IMG/VR virus record: IMGVR_UViG_3300022937_003894
Span: 1-20,518 of that record
Reading direction: 5' to 3' (one strand)
Source: a virus
DNA: 20,518 nucleotides
Shown: piece after piece, positions 815-16,009 of the stretch
Layout: the number at the start of each line of letters is the position of its first letter
How positions within the stretch are numbered: the first letter of the stretch is position 1
Position numbers and translations under genes: made by a program
Notes under the pieces: model-generated
Database searches by the model: none
What the model saw: the letters and a program-made list of their open reading frames with translations, nothing else
Told to the model about the DNA's origin: nothing

Positions 815-1780
815 TTAAAAGTTTGCAAATCCTTGGAACGCAAATCCATGGATAGCCAAGACGATTACAACTGACAGCGCCAGTCCAATCATCATTTTGA
901 AAAAGTCTCTCCCAACTAAAGGAAAAACAGTTTTAAACTTGTATTTGCCATTCACTGAAGCAAATGCAAGTTCTCTACCTGCCAACAAACCAACAAATAC
1001 CCAGGTAGTTGACATAGGTATACTATTGTATTCTTTAAAATACCATAAAATTATACAATAAATTAAATCCACTAATGTTGCCGATCTAACATATTTTGTA
1101 TTTGTTTTACTCAATACGACATCTTGAATTCTCCCACCTTTTTCATAAAACATGTAGGATAGTCCAGCAACAAAAATCAAACTAATCATAAACATAGTTT
1201 CTATCGGAATTTGTCTAGGCAAGAATACTGCAATGTTTGCCATATCGTGACTCAACCATGTAAACCATAACCAACCGGTTGTACACCACTGTGCAACCCT
1301 CCACCATTTGTCATGACTTGCTGGAATTTCTGTTTTTGTCTCCCAATATTTTGATACAGCCAACCATATAATATATGCTGCGGCTGCGGCAACCAAGTAA
1401 CCCATTGCCGATTTTAATAAAACTTTTTCTAAAACAACGGTGCTGGCAAATGCACTTAAAACTAAAAATGTTGTACTCACAGGTATGCCGAATCTTGTCA
1501 ATATCACAAGCACAAGAGGCGCCACTGCATGGTACCATTGAACGGGTTGATATGGAATTTTTTCTAATCTTCCATAAGAAATATCTCCTGCATTGACATA
1601 CCATCCATACCATATAGTGAACAAAAGCACAATACTGCTTGCGGCCCACATCACATACCATTTAAATTTCTCTGAATTACTAGCAATCCAAGTGCCTAGT
1701 GTTTGAACACTGTCATTGGCAATAACCGAATAACTAGCAAGTGTAAATCCTATAATCGTGTAGAGTAATGTTACATCCAT
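815..1780 (-). CDS. PiT (PHO4) family inorganic phosphate transporter-like permease
   Basis: A 321-residue, very hydrophobic protein with about nine or ten predicted membrane helices. It shows the internal duplication of the PiT/PHO4 family of ion-coupled phosphate symporters: the first half has AND at residues 21-23 followed by PVSTT at 100-104, and the second half has SHDMAN at 177-182 followed by PMSTT at 255-259. Typical PiT signatures are GANDVAN and P.STTH, so the motifs are degenerate. The length fits short bacterial PiT proteins. Start ATG 1780 is supported by GGGAGA five bases upstream. Its likely role is phosphate uptake in the inner membrane during infection. Divergence leaves room for another anion as substrate. 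A 36-aa membrane microprotein follows at once. Confidence 0.75.
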   Translation of the reverse strand: MDVTLLYTIIGFTLASYSVIANDSVQTLGTWIASNSEKFKWYVMWAASSIVLLFTIWYGWYVNAGDISYGRLEKIPYQPVQWYHAVAPLVLVILTRFGIPVSTTFLVLSAFASTVVLEKVLLKSAMGYLVAAAAAYIIWLAVSKYWETKTEIPASHDKWWRVAQWCTTGWLWFTWLSHDMANIAVFLPRQIPIETMFMISLIFVAGLSYMFYEKGGRIQDVVLSKTNTKYVRSATLVDLIYCIILWYFKEYNSIPMSTTWVFVGLLAGRELAFASVNGKYKFKTVFPLVGRDFFKMMIGLALSVVIVLAIHGFAFQGFANF

Positions 1781-1813: not shown

Positions 1814-2155
1814 TTATATCTTGTAATAATTACTGAAATAAGTTTCTGAATTCCAGCTTTTATCACATATGTACATATCAAAATGAGGTTTATTATTAAT
1901 CATTAATTCATGATATTTGCACCCCCATTCTTTGAGTTGTCTTAAAGTCAACTCGGTATGATCAATTTTTGACAAAACACCTCTTGCGGTCCAATAAACA
2001 ATTTTATTTCCTTCATCATATAATCTATTGATTTTTTCTATTCTATTTTTGTAAGGTTCTACCTGGTCATAACTAATTGTTGGATCATTTCTTTCTTCTC
2101 TCAAATGATCTCTATTTTGACAAATAGTGCCATCTATGTCCACAAATATTATCAT
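1814..2155 (-). CDS. Small HAD-superfamily phosphatase
   Basis: A 113-residue stand-alone HAD-fold hydrolase. Motif I is IIFVDIDGT with D6 (nucleophile) and D8 (acid/base). Motif II is YWTARG with T56. A lysine in NNKP near residue 89 may be motif III, and D98 in YICDKSW fits motif IV. It has no large cap domain, as in phosphatases that act on macromolecular, polynucleotide or sugar-phosphate substrates. The substrate cannot be read from sequence. GGAG just upstream of ATG 2155 supports the start. It lies between guaC and the phosphate transporter, so a nucleotide phosphatase is possible, but a sugar-phosphate role is just as likely. Confidence 0.8.
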   Translation of the reverse strand: MIIFVDIDGTICQNRDHLREERNDPTISYDQVEPYKNRIEKINRLYDEGNKIVYWTARGVLSKIDHTELTLRQLKEWGCKYHELMINNKPHFDMYICDKSWNSETYFSNYYKI

Positions 2156-2166
2156 ATATTCTCCAA

Positions 2167-3249
2167 TTACGATTTGCCAAAAACCTCATTCAACTGACGG
2201 TTTACCTTGACAAAAGTTGTACATTTCGGCAATGATTTCAATGTTCTGGCACCTGCATACGTACAAGCACTTCTCAAACCTCCCATTATTTCCTCAACTG
2301 TTCGACTAACAGGTCCTCTATAAGGAACTCTAACTAGTTTTCCTTCAGACGCTTTGTAGTTTTCCATACCTCCCATATGCAAATCTTGGGCTTCTTTAGA
2401 AGACATGCCATAAAATTCAACATATTTATGCCTAAAAAATGCAGGAATGTCTTTGACGGTATCATCATCATTGATATCAAATTCTTTTAAAGCATATGCT
2501 TTTTCTATTATTTTACCCTCTCCCTCATCATGACCGGCTAACATGCCTCCCAACATGACAAAATCCGCCCCTGCCGCAAATGCTTTCGCTACATCTCCAG
2601 GAACTGTACATCCTCCATCTGCTACAATATGCCCTCCTAAACCATGAGCAGCATCAGAGCATTCTATTATGGCAGAAAGTTGTGGATATCCAACGCCTGT
2701 CATTTTACGGGTTGTGCATACAGATCCAGGACCGATCCCTACTTTTACCACATCAGCACCTGCTAAAATTAATTGCTCGGTCATTTCTGCGGTCACAACA
2801 TTTCCAGCAACAATAATATGATCTGTAAATAATTCCCGCACTTCAGAAACATAGTTGACAAATCTTTCAGTATAGCCATTTGCAACATCCAAACAAATCC
2901 AGTTTAATGCAGACCATTTAAAAGATGATACAAATTTTTCGGTTACTTTATGTTCATCACCTATACCCAATGTCATAATGGCATTAGGACCCCACGGAAA
3001 ATTATCTAATTCAACGTATTTAGTCAATGCAGTCAAGCAATCATACTTCGACAAAGAATTATGCATTGAAACAGTTCCAACACCATCCATATTTGCTGCT
3101 ATAATAGGAATACCAGACCATACTTTCGGTGAATATTTAAAAGAAAATTCTCTTTTCAGATTCACTTCTTTTCGAGAATTCATTTGAGATCTTTTAGGTT
3201 TGATTAACACATCTATAAAATCTAATTTTGTATCTTCAATAATTCGCAT
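2167..3249 (-). CDS. guaC: GMP reductase
   Basis: A 360-residue protein closely matching GMP reductase (NADPH-dependent deamination of GMP to IMP) along its full length. The N-terminus (EDTKLDFIDVLIKPKRS) and the PIIAANMDGVGT region are as in Escherichia coli GuaC. The catalytic loop GIGPGSVCTTR holds Cys178, followed by TGVGYPQLSA. DGGC at 211-214 binds the phosphate, and YGMSS at 280-284 and GLRSACTY are conserved. GMP reductase is distinguished from IMP dehydrogenase by the absence of CBS domains and by this signature. It carries an insertion of about 15 residues before YGMSS compared with the E. coli protein as I recall it. It overlaps the nucleosidase by 14 bases. In the phage it would shift guanine nucleotides towards IMP and AMP, useful for an AT-rich genome. 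Confidence 0.93.
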   Translation of the reverse strand: MRIIEDTKLDFIDVLIKPKRSQMNSRKEVNLKREFSFKYSPKVWSGIPIIAANMDGVGTVSMHNSLSKYDCLTALTKYVELDNFPWGPNAIMTLGIGDEHKVTEKFVSSFKWSALNWICLDVANGYTERFVNYVSEVRELFTDHIIVAGNVVTAEMTEQLILAGADVVKVGIGPGSVCTTRKMTGVGYPQLSAIIECSDAAHGLGGHIVADGGCTVPGDVAKAFAAGADFVMLGGMLAGHDEGEGKIIEKAYALKEFDINDDDTVKDIPAFFRHKYVEFYGMSSKEAQDLHMGGMENYKASEGKLVRVPYRGPVSRTVEEIMGGLRSACTYAGARTLKSLPKCTTFVKVNRQLNEVFGKS

Positions 3250-3715
3250 ATTTTTTCCTATAAATTAAGTCAAATGTTTTTTTACCATCTCCTACTTTTT
3301 TCCAAAATTCATCGATACTGTTTTTTCCAACATAATCAGAAACATATTTAAAACAATAAAAATCAATATTTTTCGTTTCACATATTTTTTTTAACCAATA
3401 AGCTTCGCAATCCACTAAATCTGCATCAATATCATTTCTTTCAGTTAAAAATTTATCATGGGAAATTAATTTCAAACCTTTGCCATCTCCCAATATTTCA
3501 TCATCGAATGTATTACTAAATGTAGTAATATTGTATAATCCATGATATTTTTCATAAAAACTTCCACAAGTTCCGTAATTTATAACTGTTTTTAAATCAG
3601 GATTCTGTTCAACAAACAATGAAAAGTTTGTTTTAACTTTCTCAGGGCCTACACCTGTCAACAAATCAAAATAATCAAATTCTTCCTTTAAAGCTATAAC
3701 TAGTGCAGTTTTCAT
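3236..3715 (-). CDS. Short MTA/SAH-nucleosidase-like (nucleoside phosphorylase fold) protein
   Basis: 159 residues in the PNP/UDP phosphorylase fold, much shorter than the usual 230 or so. Landmarks: ALKEEFD at 8-14, TGVGPEKV at 20-27, VINYGTCGS at 44-52, DCEAYWL at 102-108 and YVSDYVGKN at 124-132. The three catalytic positions of E. coli MTA/SAH nucleosidase (E12, E174, D197) map to E11 or E12, E104 and D127. The 23-residue spacing of the last two is identical, so it is probably an active N-glycosidase releasing a base from a nucleoside. The missing residues fall in the middle, where substrate-specificity loops lie. Its stop overlaps guaC and its start overlaps the oxygenase gene by one base, so it is inside one operon. 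The exact substrate is unknown. Confidence 0.75.
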   Translation of the reverse strand: MKTALVIALKEEFDYFDLLTGVGPEKVKTNFSLFVEQNPDLKTVINYGTCGSFYEKYHGLYNITTFSNTFDDEILGDGKGLKLISHDKFLTERNDIDADLVDCEAYWLKKICETKNIDFYCFKYVSDYVGKNSIDEFWKKVGDGKKTFDLIYRKKYANY

Positions 3716-4554
3716 TAGTAACTCTGATTGAGGCGCCAGACTAGATATTCTTTAGCACCTATTGATTTATATTTTTGTTCGCCAATAAGACTATCAACTT
3801 GAACATCATCGCAAGGGTGAACAAAATAAGGGAAACTGTAACGGCTAATATTGAGATGATCATTAACAACACGATGAGGAGTAGAAATGTAAATATCGTT
3901 AGTCCAACGTTGAAGTAAATCACCAACATTGACAATGCAGGTGTTTGGTATGTACGGCGCATTGACCCATTCACTTGTTCCTCTTGGCTTTATTTGAAGT
4001 CCTGGATTTTCATCTGTAAACAATATAGTTATAGTACCATAATCAGTATGTTCACCACCTCTCATTTGATTCTCTTGAATCTCACCATTCCATGCTGGAT
4101 AATGTAACATTCTAGTTGTTGTTGATTTTGAACCTTGATGTTTTTCAATCAATGTTAATTCTGGTAATTCTAATGCTTTCTCAATGAGTTGTAAAATGCG
4201 TTTAGTAATAAGTTCTAATACGAGATTCCATTCTTCACAAACAACTTTGAATTTTTCACTGGGCCATTTATTGTCTTCAATGTACTTACACCAATTGAAT
4301 GCTTCTTTTAAATCTGGTGGAGTACCTGGTGTCAAACTTTCAATCATTCCCTGATAACCAGTGTTTGATTCTGTTGATGTATATTTGTATTTGTTTTTTT
4401 CTTCTACTGGAAGGGAAAAGAATTCTTTGGCGTGATCGAGTATTTTGGGCCAGGTTGTTTGAGTTTTAAAATAAGCAAACCCAATTGTTTTAAATGCTTC
4501 ATCTAGTTTTAGATGTGCATCATCATCTAAATGATTAATGACTGGTATTTCCAT
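3715..4554 (-). CDS. Isopenicillin-N-synthase-like 2-oxoglutarate/Fe(II) dioxygenase
   Basis: 279 residues with the two-part layout of the family: an N-terminal DIOX_N-like region (IPVINHLDDDAHLKLDEAF, then GFAYFK) and a C-terminal jelly-roll. The iron ligands are H169, D171 (GGEHTDYGTIT) and H227 (STPHRVV), and R238-x-S240 (SRYSFPYF) is the 2-oxoglutarate-binding RxS. NVGDLLQRWTND, typical of the family, lies between them. All key residues are present, so it should be catalytic. Family members oxidise many small molecules; one known nucleobase-active member is fungal thymine-7-hydroxylase, which makes a nucleobase substrate attractive here given the neighbours, but that is inference. It overlaps the nucleosidase by one base and follows the sulfotransferase-like gene by one base. 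Confidence 0.85.
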   Translation of the reverse strand: MEIPVINHLDDDAHLKLDEAFKTIGFAYFKTQTTWPKILDHAKEFFSLPVEEKNKYKYTSTESNTGYQGMIESLTPGTPPDLKEAFNWCKYIEDNKWPSEKFKVVCEEWNLVLELITKRILQLIEKALELPELTLIEKHQGSKSTTTRMLHYPAWNGEIQENQMRGGEHTDYGTITILFTDENPGLQIKPRGTSEWVNAPYIPNTCIVNVGDLLQRWTNDIYISTPHRVVNDHLNISRYSFPYFVHPCDDVQVDSLIGEQKYKSIGAKEYLVWRLNQSY

Positions 4555-4555
4555 T

Positions 4556-5599
4556 TCATCCTAACCATGTTATAAATTCATAGTGATGTGCTTTAAAGCA
4601 ACTATTATGTGAACCTGTTATAAATTTGTTTAGTGGTTTCGGATATTCTGCAAAAGTAGGTATCACATATTCCCACACAGTTTCACCCTCAGTAGTTACC
4701 TCAAACAATCGACCAAAAGCACTCTCACATATAAATGTATTTCCATTCCATGTTCGTTGAACACTTCCCATGTAAGGTGAGAAAAATGCAGGAGGCAATG
4801 GATCCACATAGGACCATATGAGTTCCTTTGTCTTCGGATCGTATTCAACTATTCTAGAATGATGTATTGAATTTGGCCTCAAATTTCCATTATCAAAACA
4901 TAATATATTTCCATTATCTAATTCAACAGGACAATGTTGTTGTGCCACAAGAGGATATTCCAATGTCCATAAAATTGTTTTAAATTTCTTATCGACACAA
5001 ATAATTCCACTTGTAGTTCTCAAACTCATTAATACATTTCCGTCTCGGGTTACATTTAGGCCATTAATCATTGGCCAATGATCATCTGAAAAGCATTCAT
5101 GTTTTTTAAATCTTTGAGGAACTAACCAATCGCTTGCTTTCCACTCCCATATGACTTCACCATCTCTATTGACTTCTTTGACAACATCCTGAACTGTTTT
5201 AGTATCTTTATCATAAACTGCTGCTGTATATAAAAGATTACCGTTATCCATCCAAAGGGCATCATGATGGTGATAAGGATCTTCATATTCCCAAATAACT
5301 TTACCATATGGATTTACCTCAATAAAATGTCCTCCATGCCATATGTCCCATGCTGGATACAAATCTACAGATTTCTCATGACTACCATTATACCCTAAAT
5401 TCCCATTAGACAATAAAACAGCATCACGTCCAGGTCTAACTGGCATATTCCATTTATGAATTCTGGCACCTCTATGGTTAATAATCTCAACTAAACCGCC
5501 ACCAGTTTGAGTAGTAAAAAGGACATATCCTTTGCTACATTTTTTATCATTTTTTCCAATTAAACCAGTTTTTCTTCTCTCAATAGTGTTTTGGTTCAT
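4556..5599 (-). CDS. Arylsulfotransferase (ASST)-like beta-propeller protein
   Basis: 347 residues of repeated propeller blades, each ending in a 'xGxVIWEY' type strand: VIWEYEDP near 101-108, VIWEWKAS near 149-156, ILWTLEYP near 209-216, LIWSYVDP near 260-267 and TVWEYVIP near 307-314. The N[GD]N[LI]L turns (LLSNGNLGY, WMDNGNLLY, ELDNGNILCF) are typical of the arylsulfotransferase/ASST family. Histidine-rich loops (H110-H112, H174, H222, H246-H247) could supply the transferase histidine, but I cannot map it with confidence. Unlike classical ASST it has no signal peptide, so it would be cytoplasmic. GAGG upstream supports ATG 5599. It sits between pyrB and the oxygenase in one operon. A non-enzymatic propeller is an alternative. 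Confidence 0.72.
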   Translation of the reverse strand: MNQNTIERRKTGLIGKNDKKCSKGYVLFTTQTGGGLVEIINHRGARIHKWNMPVRPGRDAVLLSNGNLGYNGSHEKSVDLYPAWDIWHGGHFIEVNPYGKVIWEYEDPYHHHDALWMDNGNLLYTAAVYDKDTKTVQDVVKEVNRDGEVIWEWKASDWLVPQRFKKHECFSDDHWPMINGLNVTRDGNVLMSLRTTSGIICVDKKFKTILWTLEYPLVAQQHCPVELDNGNILCFDNGNLRPNSIHHSRIVEYDPKTKELIWSYVDPLPPAFFSPYMGSVQRTWNGNTFICESAFGRLFEVTTEGETVWEYVIPTFAEYPKPLNKFITGSHNSCFKAHHYEFITWLG

Positions 5600-5605
5600 A
5601 AAGCC

Positions 5606-6496
5606 TCATTTTAATATTTTTTCAAGTAGGTATTTTCTAACTACCAATCCATTTTTCATTTGTTCAAAATATTTTGCTCTAGGATCACTATCAAACCAGG
5701 TGGGAAGTTCTTCTAATCTAGGTAGAGGATGCATGACTATTGCATTGGCATTTAAAGATAATGCATCATCTTCATTGAATGAATAAGTTCCGGCAGATAT
5801 TATCGCACCTCTTTCTTTTTGAACTCTGGTTAAATATAAAACATCTGAATTTTCTAATATATCATGATTTAAATCGGTAAATATTTCATCTTCTTCCCTA
5901 AGATATTCAACAGGTAATTTCAACGATGCAGGAGAAACCAATTTTACATTAGTATTAAATAAATGCAATACAGAAATCAATCCGTGTATTGTTCTACCAT
6001 ACTTTAAATCTCCCATCAAAATTAAATTTAGACCATCTATCGTTTTAAATTTTTTAAAAATAGTATATAAATCTAACAATGTTTGTGTTGGATGTTCGCC
6101 TATTCCGTCACCGGCATTGATAATAGGTATAGAAGAAATTCTTGCCGCCCTATGTGCAGCACCTGTTTCTGGGTGTCTCAAAACAATACAATCAACATAA
6201 TTTTGCAACGTCAAAATAGTATCTTCCAGTGATTCTCCTTTTGATACACTACTATAAATCACATTATTAATGTTCAAAACTTCATGACCTAGATATTTTT
6301 CTGCGGCATAAAAACTGGAATTAGTTCTGGTACTAGGTTCATAAAATAAATTAGCAACCATTTTCTTTTTGATTACGTTATCATCAAATGTTTTAGGATC
6401 ACTATCATCATATTCTAAAATATCATTTAATATTTCCAGTATTTCTTCTTTTGAAAAATTTTTACATGTTATAAAGTGCTGTCCAGGTTTAATCAT
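5606..6496 (-). CDS. pyrB: Aspartate carbamoyltransferase, catalytic chain
   Basis: 296 residues, close to the usual 300-310, with all motifs of the ATCase catalytic subunit that condenses carbamoyl phosphate and aspartate in de novo pyrimidine synthesis. Visible: phosphate-binding STRT at 55-58, SVSKGES with K86 (the Lys84 equivalent), LRHPETGAA with R107, GEHPTQTLLDL with H135 and Q138, KYGRT with R168, YLTRVQKER with R224 and Q226, and MHPLPR at 255-260. ATCase rather than ornithine transcarbamoylase is indicated by KYGRT, TRVQKER and HPLPR. Residue 59 onward reads NSSF instead of the commoner RLSF. No pyrI or pyrC is visible. It follows the ABC permease by one base, so it is cotranscribed with the importer. 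The active site looks intact. Confidence 0.93.
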   Translation of the reverse strand: MIKPGQHFITCKNFSKEEILEILNDILEYDDSDPKTFDDNVIKKKMVANLFYEPSTRTNSSFYAAEKYLGHEVLNINNVIYSSVSKGESLEDTILTLQNYVDCIVLRHPETGAAHRAARISSIPIINAGDGIGEHPTQTLLDLYTIFKKFKTIDGLNLILMGDLKYGRTIHGLISVLHLFNTNVKLVSPASLKLPVEYLREEDEIFTDLNHDILENSDVLYLTRVQKERGAIISAGTYSFNEDDALSLNANAIVMHPLPRLEELPTWFDSDPRAKYFEQMKNGLVVRKYLLEKILK

Positions 6497-6497
6497 G

Positions 6498-7271
6498 TTA
6501 TGCCTTTTTTAGTTCTGATTCATGCCATGTATTTAATAATATGTATCCCAGTATGGATATAACAGTAAAAAACATAAATCCTAAAAATGTTGATGTAAAA
6601 ATTAATGCCATGACTAAAGATGTCTCCAAATTTGCTTGGGCATAAATTATTTGCACACCTAATCCACCAACGGAACTACCGGATCCAATTATGAATTCTC
6701 CCACAATAGATCCTATAACAGATAATCCTGCAGATATCTTCATACCAGCAATAATATTTGGTAATGCATATGGAAACTTTAATTTAATAAAATTATTAAA
6801 ATTATTAGATTTATGCATTTTAAATAATTCCATCAATGTTTCAGGTGTTGATTTAAGTCCAAATAATGTATTATTAATGATTGGAAATAAAGATATAATA
6901 ACTGAAATTATAATCACACTTCTTTCTTCAAAACCGAACCACAAAACTATTAAAGGAGCTACTGCAACAACTGGAACAGTTTGTAATAAAATAGCATAAG
7001 GATATAAACTTTTTTCTAAAATTTTAGATAAACTCATGATCGTAGCAACAACTAAACCAATCATCGTAGCAATAATAAAACCAGTAATTGCTTCTCTAAA
7101 AGTTATAAATGCACCTTGTAAAATTATAGAATAATCTATTAAGAATGTTTCAAAAACATTTATCGGACCGGGCAATAAAAATTTCATGTCGTAATAAAAT
7201 GAAGCAATTTGCCAGCAGGCAAAAAACAAAATGAGAATAATTATAGGGGGAAAAACTTTATTTAATGACAT
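6498..7271 (-). CDS. ABC transporter permease, ThiX/SsuC-like
   Basis: 257 residues with about six hydrophobic segments and the binding-protein-dependent permease fold. The N-terminal LPGPINVFETF motif (33-43) is typical of the nitrate/sulfonate/thiamine-precursor group. The EAA-type coupling loop lies near 147-175 (KMHKSNNFNNFIKLKFPYALPN) and ends in the usual LP. It lacks the strict EAA...G residues but keeps the position and the following IIAGMK helix. Its start overlaps the ATPase gene by 10 bases, which fits coupled translation. With the ATPase (7262-7966) and binding protein (7977-8906) it forms a complete importer. The family does not fix the substrate: taurine, sulfonates, nitrate or a pyrimidine precursor are all known. 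Confidence 0.87.
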   Translation of the reverse strand: MSLNKVFPPIIILILFFACWQIASFYYDMKFLLPGPINVFETFLIDYSIILQGAFITFREAITGFIIATMIGLVVATIMSLSKILEKSLYPYAILLQTVPVVAVAPLIVLWFGFEERSVIIISVIISLFPIINNTLFGLKSTPETLMELFKMHKSNNFNNFIKLKFPYALPNIIAGMKISAGLSVIGSIVGEFIIGSGSSVGGLGVQIIYAQANLETSLVMALIFTSTFLGFMFFTVISILGYILLNTWHESELKKA

Positions 7272-7966
7272 GATCTCAACTTTCTTGAAATATTATTCAC
7301 CAATTTTAAAAAAACAGATTTCTCTCTTATACTTCTATTTCTGTCATTATAAGGCACATCAACAACATCAATAATTTCTGCGGGTCTATTGCTCATAATT
7401 ATTACACGATTACTCAAATAAACCGCTTCTGCCACATTATGTGTGACCAATACACCTGTAAAATTATCTTTTTTCCATAAATTATAAATTTCTTCTTGAA
7501 GTATTTCTCTGGTAAATTCATCAACAGCAGATAATGGTTCATCTAACAATAGATAACTTGGATTTAAAACTAATGATCTAGCCAAACTCAATCTCATTTT
7601 CATACCACCGCTTAATTGGTGTGGATAATTATTTTCAAATCCTTTTAACCCCACCCGTTCCAATACATCATATGATTTAAATTTGTAATTATCTACTTTT
7701 TCTAATTCCAATAATAATTCGACATTTTTTAATACTGTTCTCCATGGTAATAATGCACTATCTTGAAACACAAAAGCACCATTAGAAGGTCTTCTAACAG
7801 TGCCTTGATATGGAATTAATCCTGCGATAATTCGTAATAAAGTAGATTTACCACAGCCTGAAGGTCCGACAATACTGACAAACTCGCCTGTGGCAATTTT
7901 CAAATTTATATTGTTCAATGCTTGAATTTCACCAAAATTTTTATTTACATTACAAATTTCAATCAT
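7262..7966 (-). CDS. ABC transporter ATP-binding protein, ThiZ/SsuB-like
   Basis: 234 residues with every ATPase motif in place: Walker A GPSGCGKST at 34-42, Q-loop glutamine Q68 (VFQDSALLPWR), signature LSGGM at 118-122, Walker B YLLLDE at 138-143 and switch histidine H176 (LVTHNVAEAV). The FQDSALLPWRTV stretch is typical of the TauB/SsuB/ThiZ group of importers. It should energise the adjacent permease on the cytoplasmic face. The gene overlaps the permease by 10 bases and follows the binding-protein gene by 10 bases. The start has no strong Shine-Dalgarno, consistent with coupling to the preceding gene. There is no sign of decay. Confidence 0.92.
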   Translation of the reverse strand: MIEICNVNKNFGEIQALNNINLKIATGEFVSIVGPSGCGKSTLLRIIAGLIPYQGTVRRPSNGAFVFQDSALLPWRTVLKNVELLLELEKVDNYKFKSYDVLERVGLKGFENNYPHQLSGGMKMRLSLARSLVLNPSYLLLDEPLSAVDEFTREILQEEIYNLWKKDNFTGVLVTHNVAEAVYLSNRVIIMSNRPAEIIDVVDVPYNDRNRSIREKSVFLKLVNNISRKLRSCH

Positions 7967-7976
7967 TGATTACCGT

Positions 7977-8906
7977 TCAATTACAATTACTCAAAAAAGA
8001 AAGATCATATGATGAAGTCGGATCAAAATTAGCAGGCACAACATCAACTTCTTTCAACTGTGAGGACAACTCATCCCATCTACCTGGACTCATGCAACCT
8101 AATTTTGCATGATCTTTGGGTAAAAATTCTTCTTTCATTAAATTAATCGCATTCATATGAATTGATTCATTTGTTTTTTTATCCTTAGACAATATCAAAT
8201 CCATAGTTGGTTTAGGATTGTTTAATGATTTTGAAAATGCTGCTCTTAATCTCCAAACAACCTCTCTTACCAATTCAGGATTTTCATCAATCATTTTTTG
8301 TGTTGTAAATAAAACACTATATGGTTTATATCCTAAATCGGCAACTTTAATTTGGGCATTAGGAATACCCTTTGCATCCATTCTAGCAGGTAAAAATAAA
8401 CTATATCCTTGTTGAAACATTTCCGGACTTTTCGCAAATAGTCCTAAATCTCCAGTGAGAGGAAATTCATCGACATAATTCAATCCATATTCCTTTTTGA
8501 TCCATTTCCAATATGTAATACCAGGAACAACAGCAAATCTTCTACCATCAAGATCTTTTACTGTTTTAATTCCCTGATTTGGATGAAAAACTAATGTATA
8601 GGGAACATGATCTAGATTTGCAAAAATTGCTACCAATCCTGCGCCTTTAGAATTTGCTTGCATCACACTGTCTGATCCGTTTAACCCAAATTCAACTTGT
8701 CCACTGGCAACTGCCGCAGTTGTACTAACTTTTGGACCTCCAGGCTTTACATTAATCTTCAATTTATAATTATCGTTATCCAACATTGCTTGCCAGAAAA
8801 CACTTTGATTACCTTGCGGAAACCAGTCCATCAATAATGTAACCTCCTTGGCATGTGCCGAGAAGGAAATAAAAATTGTTAAAATTAAACTTAAAATATA
8901 TTTCAT
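7977..8906 (-). CDS. NMT1/THI5-type periplasmic substrate-binding protein of an ABC importer
   Basis: 309 residues beginning with a signal peptide (MKYILSLILTIFISFSAHA, likely cut after residue 19). The mature part starts EVTLLMDWFPQGNQSVFWQA, like the 'LDW.PN..H' start of NMT1/THI5/ThiY proteins. It continues with VASGQVEFGLNGSDSVMQA, IKTVKDLDGRRFAV and YKPYSVLFTT, all normal for the fold. Known members bind thiamine pyrimidine precursors such as formylaminopyrimidine or riboflavin, and relatives bind sulfonates. The THI5 CCCFC signature is absent. It heads the importer genes and follows the BMP-family gene. AAGGAA upstream of ATG 8906 supports the start. A pyrimidine-like ligand is favoured by fold and by pyrB nearby, but is unproven. 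Confidence 0.85.
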   Translation of the reverse strand: MKYILSLILTIFISFSAHAKEVTLLMDWFPQGNQSVFWQAMLDNDNYKLKINVKPGGPKVSTTAAVASGQVEFGLNGSDSVMQANSKGAGLVAIFANLDHVPYTLVFHPNQGIKTVKDLDGRRFAVVPGITYWKWIKKEYGLNYVDEFPLTGDLGLFAKSPEMFQQGYSLFLPARMDAKGIPNAQIKVADLGYKPYSVLFTTQKMIDENPELVREVVWRLRAAFSKSLNNPKPTMDLILSKDKKTNESIHMNAINLMKEEFLPKDHAKLGCMSPGRWDELSSQLKEVDVVPANFDPTSSYDLSFLSNCN

Positions 8907-8926
8907 TTTTATTCCTTATGTGTGTG

Positions 8927-9985
8927 TTATGGATAATTTGAAATTACACCATCAACAAAATAATTCATATTTTCAATTCCCTCACGTCCCATTCCAGGTT
9001 CGACAACTGTTCCATCTTGTTTAGTAAATCCTGCAGAGAATGGAAATGAAGCATCATATTCTTCGGACACAAATTTCTCTTTTTCCGATTCAACATGAAA
9101 TTTGACATTTGCGGGTACATTTGGTCCCCACGGACTAAGTCCTACACAGCCTTTTTCCATACCCCAAAATGGTGTATCAACCTCCCATGTTCCATCTTCT
9201 ACTGATTTCATCACATGCTTATAATAAACATCCCAATTAAACATCGGACCAGTTGCATAACGATCTGGACCAAAAGAATTCATTGGAGCATCATTACCCA
9301 TTCCCCATAAGGGTTTGTCCGCAGTGGATTGCTTTTGTGCTATCATTACTACTGATGGCGAATCTGTAGTTGTAAAGAATACGTCTACTCCATTATTGAA
9401 CAACGCATCTGCTGCTGCGGTGTCTTTCGCAGGATCAAACCATGAATTAATCCAAACAATCTGTACTGTAATATTTGGATTCACAGATTTTGCTCCAAGA
9501 GTTGCAGCATTAATATTGGAAATGATTTCTGGAATTGGATGAGAACCTACAAAACCAATTTTATTAGTTTTAGTTAAAAGTCCTGCCGCCTGGCCTGCCA
9601 AATAACGTGCCTGAAACAATCGACAGTTATAATTATTCAAATTTTCTGATGTTTTGAAACCAGTAGCGTGCATAAATTTAGTATCAGGAAATCTTTTGGA
9701 AACATTTAACATAGGATCCATGTAACCAAAACTTGTACCAAAAACTACATCATGCTTACGTGCCAAATTTCTAAATACTCGTTCTGATTCAGATTCTGGT
9801 ACCGCCTCGACCACATCAAACTCATAACCACTTTCTTTCATTCCCTGATAATGTCTCATACTCCAACCACCATCACTCTTAGGACCTACTAACACCAATC
9901 CTGCTGTTGGTTTTTCTGAGGCATTTAAATTAAATGAGATAATTAGAAATGCAATTATTGAGAAAAGATTAAAGAATTTTTTCAT
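8927..9985 (-). CDS. BMP-family (Med/PnrA-like) substrate-binding lipoprotein-family protein
   Basis: 352 residues with a signal peptide (hydrophobic to about residue 20, likely cut after NLNA at 22; no lipobox cysteine). The mature protein reads TAGLVLVGPKSDGGWSMRHYQGM, the standard BMP/Med start. Then come FGTSFGYMDPM, FMHATGFKT, ARYLAGQAAGLLT and KIGFVGSHPIPEI, all characteristic. Characterised members such as PnrA bind purine nucleosides. The permease pair and ATPase that normally serve this family are not in the window, so this may feed a host transporter, as phage PstS is thought to do. AAGGAG before ATG 9985 is a strong start signal. The gene follows a 63-base leader with an inverted repeat and precedes the NMT1-type importer. 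Confidence 0.88.
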   Translation of the reverse strand: MKKFFNLFSIIAFLIISFNLNASEKPTAGLVLVGPKSDGGWSMRHYQGMKESGYEFDVVEAVPESESERVFRNLARKHDVVFGTSFGYMDPMLNVSKRFPDTKFMHATGFKTSENLNNYNCRLFQARYLAGQAAGLLTKTNKIGFVGSHPIPEIISNINAATLGAKSVNPNITVQIVWINSWFDPAKDTAAADALFNNGVDVFFTTTDSPSVVMIAQKQSTADKPLWGMGNDAPMNSFGPDRYATGPMFNWDVYYKHVMKSVEDGTWEVDTPFWGMEKGCVGLSPWGPNVPANVKFHVESEKEKFVSEEYDASFPFSAGFTKQDGTVVEPGMGREGIENMNYFVDGVISNYP

Positions 9986-10048: not shown

Positions 10049-10525
10049 TCAAACTGGTGCATTCCACCAGGATTCCCAAGGAAAATGTATCCAAGTATCA
10101 GTTGAATCCTTGGCCATTTCTTGAGAAAAGTAATGCGGTTTAAAACTTACTTCATTATTCCACCATAATGATGCAAATCTTATATCCGCACACTGTTTGT
10201 TAGATAAAACAGTTTTATTATAATCATCTATTGAATATTTTATTCTTTGAAAAGTTTCACCGCTATCACATATATCATCAACAATTAAAACGGTTTTATC
10301 TTGAGGTTTAGGTAGGAATTCTTCCCATTCTGGAAAATCCCTGAGGGATGCTACAAGAGGGCGAAAAGGTTTTTTAAACCAATGACTCATCATGATTCCT
10401 GGAACCAATCCGCCTCTAGATATGCCTACGATCACATTAGGATTAAAATTGTCAAGAGTTATTTGACGGCAAAGAGCATTAACATCTCTTCGCATTTCTC
10501 TCCAATCATACCAATATTTTTTCAT
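10049..10525 (-). CDS. Purine-type phosphoribosyltransferase (XGPRT/HPRT-like)
   Basis: 158 residues with the type I phosphoribosyltransferase core. The PRPP loop is VLIVDDICDSGET at 79-91, with the DD pair at 83-84. VGISRGGLVPG at 33-43 forms the pyrophosphate loop. A C-terminal IHFPWE at 146-151 matches the FPWE signature of xanthine/hypoxanthine-guanine phosphoribosyltransferases. Tryptophans at both ends are typical of the short XGPRT-like group. It would convert a free purine base and PRPP to the nucleotide, which GMP reductase and the nucleosidase nearby complement. No clear Shine-Dalgarno precedes ATG 10525; the gene follows the H1-like gene by three bases, so coupling is likely. The preferred base (hypoxanthine, guanine or xanthine) cannot be told. 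Confidence 0.85.
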   Translation of the reverse strand: MKKYWYDWREMRRDVNALCRQITLDNFNPNVIVGISRGGLVPGIMMSHWFKKPFRPLVASLRDFPEWEEFLPKPQDKTVLIVDDICDSGETFQRIKYSIDDYNKTVLSNKQCADIRFASLWWNNEVSFKPHYFSQEMAKDSTDTWIHFPWESWWNAPV

Positions 10526-12986: not shown

Positions 12987-13910
12987 CTATTTAGTTTTAA
13001 ACTTAATAAATTTTAATGTACCATTTAAAGTTAAATTTATTTTTTTAAACTTTGCATCCGATGTTATCAGTTGATTACTATCAACTGGTTTAGCATTACT
13101 TGTATGTGATATAGTAATATGTGGTTTACCTGGATTTAATCGTTTAATTCCTGCTATATCAACCACAACTGCCTGAATATTATCATTGCTATATAAATCT
13201 AAAGTTTTAATTTTAAATTTATCGTTTAATTGTTTTTCTAAAATTCTTGAATCATAATCACTAGGTCTATATGCAATTGTCACATGATGTGCAACAATTA
13301 TAGAATGTATTGCATATTTTTTCAATGATTCATGACTTTTTTTATCCAACACTATTGCAAAATAGCCATTCGCATTATTGTTTTTATATTCTATATCTTC
13401 ACTAATTTCTTCGTTCAACAATTTATTCAATTTATTAATAGTAGAAGATGCGGATATATGATAAATTCCTATTCCCCCTTTTGCCTCCCATTTTTCAATA
13501 TTATCTATTGTATCGTCAATCAAAATATTCGCTATATTATTTTTTACAGCATATTTAGGTTTTTCAGATGTAAAAACTGTGATGACTTTATTTGGGGAAA
13601 ATCCATAATGCTTTTTCATCCATTGCTTCTTATGATCTGATGCATATGGCATTGCTCTCTTACCAGGCATTCCTGTTAACATATCAACATCATATTTTTT
13701 CAATTCTTTCATCAATAAATCTGCATCTTTCATTTTAGGTAAATTCAAAAACCAATCACCAGGCAAATTCCTAAATGGTAATATATCTTCGATCTTTTTG
13801 TCTGGACCATAAATTTTTTTTACCTGACCCTCAAAATCAGCAACTACACCATCCATGTCACAATAAATTTTAGGTCTATTTTGATTTAAAACTTCTTTTA
13901 AAGTTTTCAT
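12987..13910 (-). CDS. HAD phosphatase fused to a 2H phosphoesterase (RNA end-healing candidate)
   Basis: 307 residues in two domains. Residues 12-165 are a HAD phosphatase: YCDMDGV with D18 and D20, MLTG with T79, SEKPK with K117/K119, and ILIDDTIDN with D132 and D133, closest to 5'(3')-deoxyribonucleotidase NT5C-like proteins. Residues 182-307 form a 2H phosphoesterase: GYFAIVL, then H209-V-T211 (HVTIAY) and H264-I-T266 (HITIS), the paired HxT motifs of 2',3'-cyclic phosphodiesterases. A linker rich in N, E and K separates them. Its ATG overlaps the RNA ligase stop by four bases and GGAG lies nearby. In this operon the fusion could remove 3'-phosphate and open 2',3'-cyclic phosphate before ligation. 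A nucleotide-pool phosphatase is the alternative for the HAD half. Confidence 0.82.
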   Translation of the reverse strand: MKTLKEVLNQNRPKIYCDMDGVVADFEGQVKKIYGPDKKIEDILPFRNLPGDWFLNLPKMKDADLLMKELKKYDVDMLTGMPGKRAMPYASDHKKQWMKKHYGFSPNKVITVFTSEKPKYAVKNNIANILIDDTIDNIEKWEAKGGIGIYHISASSTINKLNKLLNEEISEDIEYKNNNANGYFAIVLDKKSHESLKKYAIHSIIVAHHVTIAYRPSDYDSRILEKQLNDKFKIKTLDLYSNDNIQAVVVDIAGIKRLNPGKPHITISHTSNAKPVDSNQLITSDAKFKKINLTLNGTLKFIKFKTK

Positions 13911-15004
13911 ATTGTCTCCAAAAATTTATTTGCTTTCTCTAAAGCATTTGTATTTTTTTCAACATAATTTTTAATTAATGATATGATAAATTCATCGGTT
14001 GGATTTTTTAAAGATTGCATGATTAAATGAAAATCTTCATCATCTTTTATAGACATGGCAAAAGTTTTCTTATCGCCATCATATCGTTTCAAGGAATTTT
14101 TAATTTTATCGAATTTACACAAAATTAAACCAACAATTTTTGTTCTAATATTCTTAATTCTATCTATTATTTCAACCTGATCTTCGGGAACATTAGAAAT
14201 TAAATCATCAATTGTTTCATCTAAAATACAATTGATTATAAAATTAGTTGATTGTACATCTACAGTTAACAATCTATGATTTTTTAGATACCAAGGTGTC
14301 TTAACTTTGATCATTTGACCATCATCAAAATGTAAAACATATCCTTCAAGTTCTTCTGAATCTAATGAACTCATGGTATCTTGATAATTCATTTCGACTT
14401 TTTTAGCAGTTTTAATGCCCCATTTTTTACCACAATCATCAATGTTTAAATATTTACCATTAGAATTATCTCTCAAGGCAACTAATACTAAATCAGTGTA
14501 TTTGTATCCGACAACTACTCTATTAAAAGGTGAAACATATTCAAAAATTGCTGCCAAATTATTTTTTAATGTAAAATCAACAAATGATTTAACATTAAAA
14601 TTTGTATTGTAAACGGATTGCGCAGAAACTGCTTGTTTCGATTCAAATGACATTTTAGTTTTGGCAAAAACTTTATCTCCTATGGGAATGAATCTAATCA
14701 TTGAACCGTCCAATTTTTCATATACACCAACTAATTTTTTATCCTTTAAATCATTTGACATATAATTAGTTGTTTGATTCAAATTAAAAAATTTATGCAA
14801 ATGTAAAAAAGGATTTGACCATACATTGTTCTTTTTTTGAACAAACGTTAGACCTCTCATTTCAAAAGCATTAAAATTATCAAAATCTTTAAAATCCGCC
14901 ATCATGTAATGAAACATTGCAACATTATGACCATTGACAGTCACATGTTTGGAATAAAAACATGAATTTTTATTAGTTATAGCCAATGCATCTTCGTATT
15001 TCAT
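13907..15004 (-). CDS. RNA ligase, T4 Rnl1 family
   Basis: 365 residues, close to T4 Rnl1 (374). Motifs in order: FEMRGLTFV with R50, nucleotidyl motif I YEKLDGSMI with adenylated lysine K97, motif III/IIIa AIFEYVSPFNRVVV at 152-165, motif IV EGYVLHF at 220-226 and motif V MIKVKTPWYL at 231-240. The helical C-terminal region (roughly 250-365) fits the Rnl1-specific domain. The enzyme joins 5'-phosphate and 3'-hydroxyl RNA ends with ATP, typically to repair tRNAs cut in the anticodon loop. It overlaps the HAD-2H gene by four bases and follows the kinase gene by six, so the repair enzymes are probably made together. No good Shine-Dalgarno precedes ATG 15004. Confidence 0.9.
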   Translation of the reverse strand: MKYEDALAITNKNSCFYSKHVTVNGHNVAMFHYMMADFKDFDNFNAFEMRGLTFVQKKNNVWSNPFLHLHKFFNLNQTTNYMSNDLKDKKLVGVYEKLDGSMIRFIPIGDKVFAKTKMSFESKQAVSAQSVYNTNFNVKSFVDFTLKNNLAAIFEYVSPFNRVVVGYKYTDLVLVALRDNSNGKYLNIDDCGKKWGIKTAKKVEMNYQDTMSSLDSEELEGYVLHFDDGQMIKVKTPWYLKNHRLLTVDVQSTNFIINCILDETIDDLISNVPEDQVEIIDRIKNIRTKIVGLILCKFDKIKNSLKRYDGDKKTFAMSIKDDEDFHLIMQSLKNPTDEFIISLIKNYVEKNTNALEKANKFLETI

Positions 15005-15010
15005 AATTTT

Positions 15011-15520
15011 TTATATTTTTTTAATTTCAATATCGTCAAAACCTTCTTCTTCAGTAGGAGGTTCATAATTCGAAAGCATCTGCTGTAGTAAATTTACAGG
15101 TAAGTTTTTTCCCTCTGCCGCTCTCATTTTATTTCTTGCCTTTAACGTAGACAGATCAGTTTCAAATGCAACGGCAATTTTTCTATAATGTTTAGGAATT
15201 CTAGATAAAAATTTCGATCTAGATTTTCTGTTCATCATTGTCATATCAATTACAAAATTTTTACCATTATTAATTAATTGATCAAATTTCAAATTCAATT
15301 CCTTATTAACAGAATTTTGATCAATTTTTGAAAATATTAAATTATAATTGTTCAATCCTAACTTATGACCATGATTCATCACTATTTCATCTCTTGATAA
15401 AACGTTTTTAAGACCTTCTCTTTTAATATAAGTTGTTTTTCCTACACCAGGAGGACCTATAATAAAAGTAACAGTTTTATTTTTATTTGCCTCTGCTTGA
15501 AGGCCTCTAAACGTTTTCAT
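15011..15520 (-). CDS. Polynucleotide 5'-kinase-like P-loop enzyme
   Basis: 169 residues with a P-loop kinase fold resembling the kinase half of T4 Pnkp. Walker A is GPPGVGKTT at 22-30 (K28). LSRDEIV at 41-47 resembles the Pnkp NRDD segment. VIDMTMMNRKSRSKFL at 90-105 follows the 'D.T..N...R' pattern, arginines R129 and R133 could form the lid, and PVNLLQQMLSNYEPP and EGFDDI at 141-163 match the Pnkp 'P...L..M...P...EGFD' tail. The 3'-phosphatase half of Pnkp is missing; a HAD domain is instead found two genes downstream. The likely reaction is ATP-dependent phosphorylation of 5'-OH RNA ends. It starts seven bases after bS21. Confidence 0.82.
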   Translation of the reverse strand: MKTFRGLQAEANKNKTVTFIIGPPGVGKTTYIKREGLKNVLSRDEIVMNHGHKLGLNNYNLIFSKIDQNSVNKELNLKFDQLINNGKNFVIDMTMMNRKSRSKFLSRIPKHYRKIAVAFETDLSTLKARNKMRAAEGKNLPVNLLQQMLSNYEPPTEEEGFDDIEIKKI

Positions 15521-15527
15521 ATATTAT

Positions 15528-15770
15528 CTAAAAAAATATTTCATCTGAATTTTTTTCAAGATTTTTGATTTCCCTATGCAAATCTTTGATTCTCTGACGT
15601 TCTGCATTTTCTCTTTTCAGTTTTTTAGCTAAAGAAGGTTTAATAAAGAATTCATGTTTTTTAATTTGCATCAAAATTCCCTCATCATTTACCATATTTT
15701 TAAACTTTTGAAGAGTTTTAAAGTTGTTTTGAGATGTATTCTGAACGCTCACTCTTACACATTTTGTCAT
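15528..15770 (-). CDS. rpsU: Ribosomal protein bS21
   Basis: 80 residues with the bS21 layout: a short strand (VRVSVQN), then FKTLQKFKNMVNDEGILMQIKKHEFFIKPS matching the bacterial '[28 protein letters not shown]', then a basic helix (KRENAERQRIKDLHREIK) and an acidic end. It is slightly longer than typical bacterial bS21 (about 70). bS21 sits near the anti-Shine-Dalgarno region of 16S rRNA in the 30S subunit. Marine phages, including pelagiphages, are known to carry bS21 homologues. It is the first gene after a sigma70-like promoter (15823-15851) and heads the kinase-ligase-HAD/2H series. Its leader of about 45 bases has only a weak Shine-Dalgarno, AAGAGA. Confidence 0.88.
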   Translation of the reverse strand: MTKCVRVSVQNTSQNNFKTLQKFKNMVNDEGILMQIKKHEFFIKPSLAKKLKRENAERQRIKDLHREIKNLEKNSDEIFF

Positions 15771-15822: not shown

Positions 15823-15851
15823 AGTATATATCAATCATTGGCATTTGTCAA
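15823..15851 (-). promoter_or_regulatory. Sigma70-type promoter for the bS21/RNA-repair operon
   Basis: The minus strand has TTGACA at 15846-15851 (perfect -35) and TATACT at 15823-15828 (one mismatch from TATAAT), separated by exactly 17 bases. Transcription would start near 15816, about 45 bases before the bS21 ATG. It is the best promoter match I found in the window and fits an early or middle gene read by host RNA polymerase. Confidence 0.75.
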
Positions 15852-15925
15852 TCTTTTTTTTAGTATAAAAAATTAATTTTCCACATTCTGTTTCAACCAT
15901 ATTCATTTCTAAATTGTCGAGTGAT

Positions 15926-15948
15926 GCCAGTGAGATTTTCTCACTGGC
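15926..15948 (-). terminator. Nine-pair hairpin at the end of the upstream operon
   Basis: GCCAGTGAG (15926-15934) and CTCACTGGC (15940-15948) form a perfect nine-pair stem with a five-base loop, by far the strongest hairpin in the window. It lies between the upstream genes and the bS21 promoter and contains the stop codon of a 22-codon frame. There is no T run on its minus-strand 3' side, so it is not a classical intrinsic terminator; it may block exonucleases at an mRNA end or help termination. Confidence 0.55.
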
Positions 15949-16009
15949 GCATACGTTGATAGTTTGGATCTTTTAGTGATCCTTTATACCTCCAAATTTT
16001 TTTTAACAT
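15941..16009 (-). CDS. 22-aa micro-ORF ending inside the hairpin
   Basis: From ATG 16007-16009 a 22-codon frame runs to TGA 15941-15943. The product is basic and aromatic (starts MLKKIWRYKGSLKDP and ends with RMRQ). TAAGGAA, overlapping the stop of the upstream 100-aa gene, sits four to five bases before the ATG, a good ribosome-binding site. The last codons and the stop fall in the 3' part of the hairpin sequence. The amino-acid choice looks protein-like, but at 22 codons chance cannot be excluded. An internal GGAGG within the frame is an oddity. Confidence 0.4.
   Translation of the reverse strand: MLKKIWRYKGSLKDPNYQRMRQ

Follow-up and report, generated by a model that had tools for sequence, protein, structure and literature searches.

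A predicted phage RNA repair cassette in which a fusion of a nucleotidase-type HAD with a 2H domain accompanies a kinase and an Rnl1-type ligase, beside a bS21 gene that is probably not part of it

Do a ribosomal protein gene and three putative RNA end-processing genes that follow one another in the genome of a marine phage belong to one system? The question is raised by IMG/VR record IMGVR_UViG_3300022937_003894, analysed here over its entire 20,518 bases (the window). On its minus strand lie bS21, a 5'-OH polynucleotide kinase, a T4 Rnl1-type RNA ligase and a HAD domain fused to a 2H domain (HAD-2H), each with a family match and in the order and limits given by an earlier note made from the sequence alone (Table 1). 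We think it probable that the kinase, the ligase and HAD-2H constitute a phage RNA repair cassette in which HAD-2H would heal 3' ends, and that bS21 is not involved.

The genes are tightly packed: 7 nucleotides separate bS21 from the kinase and 6 the kinase from the ligase, and the ligase and HAD-2H genes overlap by 4. A sister contig (IMGVR_UViG_3300021364_000056, 40 kb; L056 and L057) carries the identical four-gene order with the catalytic motifs retained, at protein identities of 85% (bS21), 73% (kinase), 56% (ligase) and 69% (HAD-2H). Nonsynonymous divergence (dN) between the two phages is 0.18-0.34 for the three repair genes, against a synonymous divergence (dS) of 0.85-1.76, and dN is also lower than dS in the HAD part and the 2H part taken separately; dS at such levels is approximate, and for bS21 it was not computable. 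Retention of the block in the sister, together with a dN well under dS in the three repair genes, means that it is not a product of chance, and these substitution patterns indicate that it is most likely under selection in two diverged phages. The proposal of the earlier note that the kinase, ligase and HAD-2H make up an end-healing and sealing set is supported, the three genes being compact and conserved, with the activities predicted from motifs and folds.

The same note had the four genes read from one promoter, which is plausible. Upstream of bS21 stands a candidate sigma-70-type site that agrees with the consensus at 11 of 12 positions, and the sister has TTGACA-16-TAAAAT at the aligned position. 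Conservation of the site is ambiguous, however, because it overlaps a small open reading frame (ORF), within which its TTGACA falls; moreover, 43 promoter-like sites were found across the region where 30 were expected, and the main genes of the window all share one direction.

Two of the three enzymes resemble well-known types. The kinase matches phrog_505, the T4-type polynucleotide kinase family, over the N-terminal kinase half only. Its P-loop (GPPGVGKTT, of which GxPG-GK-T is invariant), D44, D92-x-T94 and R129 are kept across aligned homologues that include the HD-Pnk proteins of L038 and Campylobacter phage CP81, which gives it the P-loop, the aspartate for the 5'-OH and the lid arginine of a 5'-OH kinase. 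It consists of a kinase domain only, lacking the C-terminal fused HAD 3'-phosphatase of T4 Pnkp, and it has no HD domain either, although some of its nearest relatives, in L038 and Campylobacter phage CP81, are HD-kinase fusions (PF01966 plus AAA_33). By sequence it groups with the kinase domains of HD-Pnk and T4 Pnk, whose genes are neighbours of Rnl1 in many phages. The ligase aligns with the T4 Rnl1 structure 2c5u over residues 12-318 and with phrog_562 over positions 7-370 of 377, nearly full length; KLDGS (K97), E155, E220 and K233/K235 are invariant in seven aligned homologues. It scores under the curated equivalog cut-off of TIGR02308 (135.7 versus 242 bits). All nucleotidyltransferase motifs and the Rnl1 C-terminal region are present, as predicted for an Rnl1-type ATP-dependent ligase.

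Novel at this locus is the third protein, in which an NT5C-type HAD is joined to a 2H domain of CNPase-like predicted fold and which is placed with Pnk and Rnl1. The HAD part matches PF06941 (NT5C) at 26.4 bits, above the cut-off of 24.8, and its catalytic residues D18, D20, T79, K117 and D132/D133 are intact in a 19-sequence alignment. Among PDB structures, Foldseek places the deoxyribonucleotidase-like 3bwv first (expectation value, E, 1.3e-7), followed by human deoxyribonucleotidases, whereas a profile search with the PNKP-phosphatase family PF25109 gave no match to the HAD-2H protein. Family profile and modelled fold thus agree in assigning the HAD to the 5'(3')-deoxyribonucleotidase (NT5C) type and not to the PNKP type. 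The picture of a phosphatase that has left the kinase and joined a 2H domain is therefore right about the kinase, which has no fused phosphatase, but the idea of a relocated T4 Pnkp phosphatase is rejected, the HAD being NT5C-type. The HAD instead looks recruited into the cassette, since its stand-alone relatives (L003-L025) show no Rnl1 or Pnk match in their available flanks. A search of BFVD with its model further picked out part of the Bodo saltans virus "tRNA ligase/uridine kinase" (3e-11, 27% identity), a protein listed among the tRNA repair genes of that virus (PMC5871332).

The 2H part carries the motifs H209-V-T211-I and H264-I-T266-I, an H-h-T-h pair that arises in 0.27% of shuffles. 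Sequence profiles are weak here (PF13563, 0.015, below its cut-off; phrog_36523, 8.2e-7). A fold search with a full-length AlphaFold2 model (mean predicted local distance difference test score, pLDDT, 78) led to the CNPase catalytic domain (E ~7e-5, probability 1.00); a model of the domain alone (pLDDT 63) gives weak matches, with CNPase first (E 5e-3) and the fungal RNA kinase 6u05 third (1.4e-2). Two H-x-T/S-h motifs and a predicted bilobed fold are what a 2H phosphoesterase should have. CNPase is homologous to the healing half of Trl1 (PMC5434554), and in tRNA healing the task of 2H domains of its type is to open 2',3'-cyclic phosphates (PMC5434554, PMC4643303). HAD-2H is likely to be a bifunctional 3'-end-healing enzyme. 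Scans of the sequence collections, which use short peptide patterns and reach mainly near relatives, found no other HAD-2H fusion in IMG/VR or GTDB genomes, and phrog_36523 relatives of the 2H domain were absent from 18 records in a search whose control was also silent.

How might the three enzymes work together? A host metal-independent RNase, such as an anticodon nuclease, would cut tRNA or another RNA into ends that carry a 2',3'-cyclic phosphate on one side and a 5'-OH on the other. The 2H domain would open the cyclic phosphate, and the fused HAD would strip the 2'- or 3'-phosphate so formed. The kinase, a protein of its own, would phosphorylate the 5' end, and Rnl1 would join the healed ends. 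CNPase is reported to yield 2'-monophosphates from 2',3'-cyclic phosphates (PMC4643303). We advance only tentatively the more specific possibility that HAD-2H heals ends in one polypeptide by a 2'-phosphate route, the CNPase/Trl1-like 2H domain opening the cyclic phosphate to a 2'-phosphate that the nucleotidase-type HAD removes before Rnl1 seals. Were it so, the route would link fungal-type opening to a T4-type clean junction without need of a 2'-phosphotransferase, and HAD-2H could reveal how 2H enzymes that form 2'-phosphates serve a ligase that requires a plain 3'-OH.

Table 1. Features of the window and of the corresponding loci in its relatives (window coordinates unless a relative is named)
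Feature	Position	Strand	Evidence or remark
bS21	15528..15770	-	80 aa; PF01165 E 1.7e-10, TIGR00030 2e-10
5'-OH polynucleotide kinase, kinase domain only	15011..15520	-	169 aa; AAA_33 2.4e-17, phrog_505 1.3e-11
T4 Rnl1-type RNA ligase	13907..15004	-	365 aa; PF09511 1.9e-19; 2c5u 4.5e-30
HAD-2H gene	12987..13910	-	307 aa; phrog_2643 9.5e-26 (HAD part)
HAD domain of HAD-2H, residues 1-172	13395..13910	-	PF06941 7.4e-6; NT5C / 5'(3')-deoxyribonucleotidase type
2H domain of HAD-2H, residues 173-307	12987..13394	-	motifs H209/H264; CNPase-like predicted fold
Candidate sigma-70-type promoter	15823..15851	-	TTGACA-17-TATACT; upstream of bS21
Second small HAD	1814-2155	-	PF25109 3.2e-5 (below cut-off), phrog_415 6.5e-10
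Phosphoribosyltransferase	10049-10525		counterpart of gene near bS21 in four relatives
Host-like genes	2167-9985	-	see text
PHO4-like transporter	815-1780	-	
Perfect 10-bp hairpin	~15925-15955		upstream of operon; no T run after
Two-piece tmRNA	L056 17592-17926; L139 2326-2743; L178 5253-5672; L180 4963-5377; L182 4306-4720; L265 4092-4511		RF04321

Comparison with other viral loci places HAD-2H in a wider pattern. Among the viral loci retrieved, 20 others, some of them near-duplicates, have Pnk and Rnl1 no more than 4.5 kb apart on the same strand. The putative 3'-healing partner is an HD domain fused to the kinase in nine of these and a separate PNKP-type HAD in three (L059, L071 and L091), and none was recognised in the remaining eight; no 2H or bS21 match occurs in any of the 20. 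A split between kinase and phosphatase is hence not unique to the window, as the three loci with a separate PNKP-type HAD show, and HD-Pnk fusions are also known. HAD-2H appears to fill the slot of an exchangeable 3'-end-healing part that is elsewhere taken by HD or by a PNKP-type HAD. Phages mend host-cut tRNA with a few interchangeable parts, and the locus suggests that a nucleotidase-type HAD and a CNPase-like 2H domain can replace the 3'-healing one.

Each of the known systems shares something with the cassette. With T4 Pnkp and Rnl1 in tRNA repair it has in common a T4 Pnk-type kinase and a full-length Rnl1-type ligase, but its kinase is without the Pnkp HAD and 3' healing is assigned to the NT5C-type HAD fused to 2H. 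The HD-Pnk plus Rnl1 cassettes (CP81, L038, L167 and others) have a closely related kinase domain near Rnl1; there HD is fused N-terminally to the kinase, whereas the window has HAD-2H instead. The split cassettes of L059, L071 and L091 likewise keep a kinase-only gene, a separate HAD gene and Rnl1 close by, but the HAD in them belongs to the Pnkp type, and a 2H domain was not found. Fungal Trl1 and the animal PNK/cyclic phosphodiesterase (CPDase)-CNPase enzymes combine kinase, 2H cyclic phosphodiesterase and ligase activities, the same ones predicted for the window, with a similar predicted 2H fold; in the window these are spread over three separate proteins, with an extra HAD phosphatase and a ligase of Rnl1 type. 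The jumbo-phage sets combine kinase, HAD, 2H and ATP-dependent ligase (Rnl) and have been proposed to undo host RNase attack, the HADs being of the PNK or "Swiss-army-knife" kind (PMC7824862). The proposed job is the same, and the accessible part of that account mentions no fusion of an NT5C-HAD with 2H. A survey of polyvalent proteins never saw the specific phage 2H domains it studied with RNA ligases (PMC5512222). The window cassette is a variant of the jumbo-phage sets and an exception to that trend.

Several observations weigh against an RNA repair cassette with HAD-2H as its 3' healer. The complete block is present in only two phages, the window and its sister. The 2H sequence call is weak, and the domain-only fold search produced no E below 1e-3. 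The flanks of L003-L025 imply that the HAD family is not generally a repair family. Finally, the window encodes a second small HAD with weak similarity to PNKP phosphatases. Its counterpart in the sister is 96% identical, and no match to it came from the relatives without the cassette; this PNKP-type HAD, present in both phages, could share or take over the 3'-phosphatase step.

Could HAD-2H simply recycle nucleotides? The 2H domain would then open free 2',3'-cyclic nucleoside monophosphates from RNA breakdown and the nucleotidase would dephosphorylate them into nucleoside pools, its position after Rnl1 being incidental. The HAD is indeed nearest to 5'(3')-deoxyribonucleotidases, and nucleotide genes are plentiful in the phage (IMPDH/GMP reductase, aspartate carbamoyltransferase, a phosphoribosyltransferase, PnrA-like and NMT1-like transport proteins). 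Tight packing, the overlap with the Rnl1 gene and retention in the sister argue otherwise, and the kinase and Rnl1 would be left with no adjacent 3'-end-healing partner. We regard recycling as rather unlikely and continue to favour RNA repair.

Relatives of the window bear on the place of bS21. The protein itself is well recognised (PF01165, 40.9 bits versus a cut-off of 27; TIGR00030 also above cut-off). The earlier note had suggested a joint role, with repair of tRNA or rRNA cut by a host anti-phage nuclease plus ribosome take-over; on that view bS21 and the three enzymes would act together on the ribosome, bS21 guiding 16S rRNA repair or aiding take-over alongside it. The operon-like order in two diverged phages fits such a role, and in another phage bS21 is known to be incorporated into ribosomes (PMC6375957). 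When the gene immediately upstream of bS21 was used as a marker to locate the same place in relatives, however, the contigs holding the bS21 locus numbered seven, with the cassette in two, the window and its sister, and bS21 alone in the other five. In L178, L180, L182 and L265 (bS21 57-59% identical to the window) one or two short genes separate it from a phosphoribosyltransferase downstream, whereas it is followed in L139 (72%) by a repetitive fibre-like gene of 1048 residues. L178/L265 and L180/L182 are apparently near pairs, so that the cassette-less lineages number about three. Among eight virus records searched whole, Pnk, Rnl1 and HAD-2H matches came from the sister only; these contigs are fragments, so that the negative extends only to the sequence they contain. 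Nor was an Rnl1 match found in the metagenome-assembled genome (MAG) containing L265.

These comparisons indicate that bS21 is the conserved gene of the locus and the cassette variable cargo downstream of it. On this reading the two adjoin because bS21 is conserved and the stretch downstream of it, where the cassette lies, is variable; and because relatives hold bS21 at the same locus without the cassette, bS21 is probably not part of the repair module. Elsewhere, too, its neighbours are of other kinds: it is flanked by unrelated genes in Mosig, and in a survey of 900 phages its commonest named neighbours were head, DNA-processing, Hsp20, Clp and lysis genes, mostly head (PMC9723584). L093 has an AAA_33 kinase at 5884-6630 and a bS21-domain protein about 0.9 kb downstream at 7499-7873. 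This proximity might be counted in favour of a joint role, but a prohead-protease-like gene lies between in a head-gene region, and the arrangement is probably the ordinary neighbourhood of bS21 and head genes. A literature search joining phage, ribosomal protein S21, RNA ligase and polynucleotide kinase found nothing, with the Burroughs-Aravind 2016 survey of RNA repair falling outside it. With bS21 conserved at the locus and the cassette variable, the joint hypothesis loses its main support; a joint bS21-repair system was rejected on the strength of the five relatives, and we give the joint role little chance. The result is a warning against inferring function from the gene order of a single phage.

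Improbable, too, is a counter-defence role in which the 2H domain, in the manner of Acb1 or viral 2'-5' phosphodiesterases, degrades oligonucleotide signals of the cyclic or 2'-5' type. Such enzymes do occur among 2H domains, the viral RNase L antagonist 4ye2 appears lower in the fold list (E 0.05), and signal or RNase roles have been proposed for phage 2H domains unlinked to ligases (PMC5512222). The 2H domain considered here is coupled to a ligase, its best fold matches are CNPase and the fungal RNA kinase with no Acb1 among the matches listed, and PADLOC gave no meaningful match. That the Rnl1 homologue mainly serves tail-fibre attachment, as T4 gp63 also does, among unrelated neighbours is most improbable of all: phrog_562 bears the name "RNA ligase and tail fiber protein attachment catalyst" and the sister has a possible tail-fibre-like gene after its cassette, but the nucleotidyltransferase motifs are all kept, the kinase is directly coupled, and that fibre-like gene is absent next to the cassette in the window.

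Further features of the window and its relatives deserve mention. A two-piece (permuted) transfer-messenger RNA (tmRNA; Rfam) lies a few kb upstream of bS21 in all six relatives, and the window ends short of that place; such tmRNAs are known in phages from Melnitz-like marine phages (PMC9004378). The hairpin upstream of the operon sits at the end of one small ORF and before another, and the sister retains it, with both arms of the stem altered (RNA fold z-scores -5.1 and -7.0). Host-like genes of the window encode IMPDH/GMP reductase, aspartate carbamoyltransferase, an ABC transporter with NMT1-like and PnrA-like binding proteins, a 2-oxoglutarate (2OG) oxygenase and an arylsulfotransferase-like protein; the order of the transporter genes is common to L178 and L265. 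The PnrA-like protein finds its best matches in marine MAGs, including SAR324 single cells, from which no host is assigned, at least one MAG match (L184/L265) being itself a phage contig. The PHO4-like transporter is 100% identical in protein to that of the sister, against 55-87% for most neighbours, which suggests that this gene was recently exchanged.

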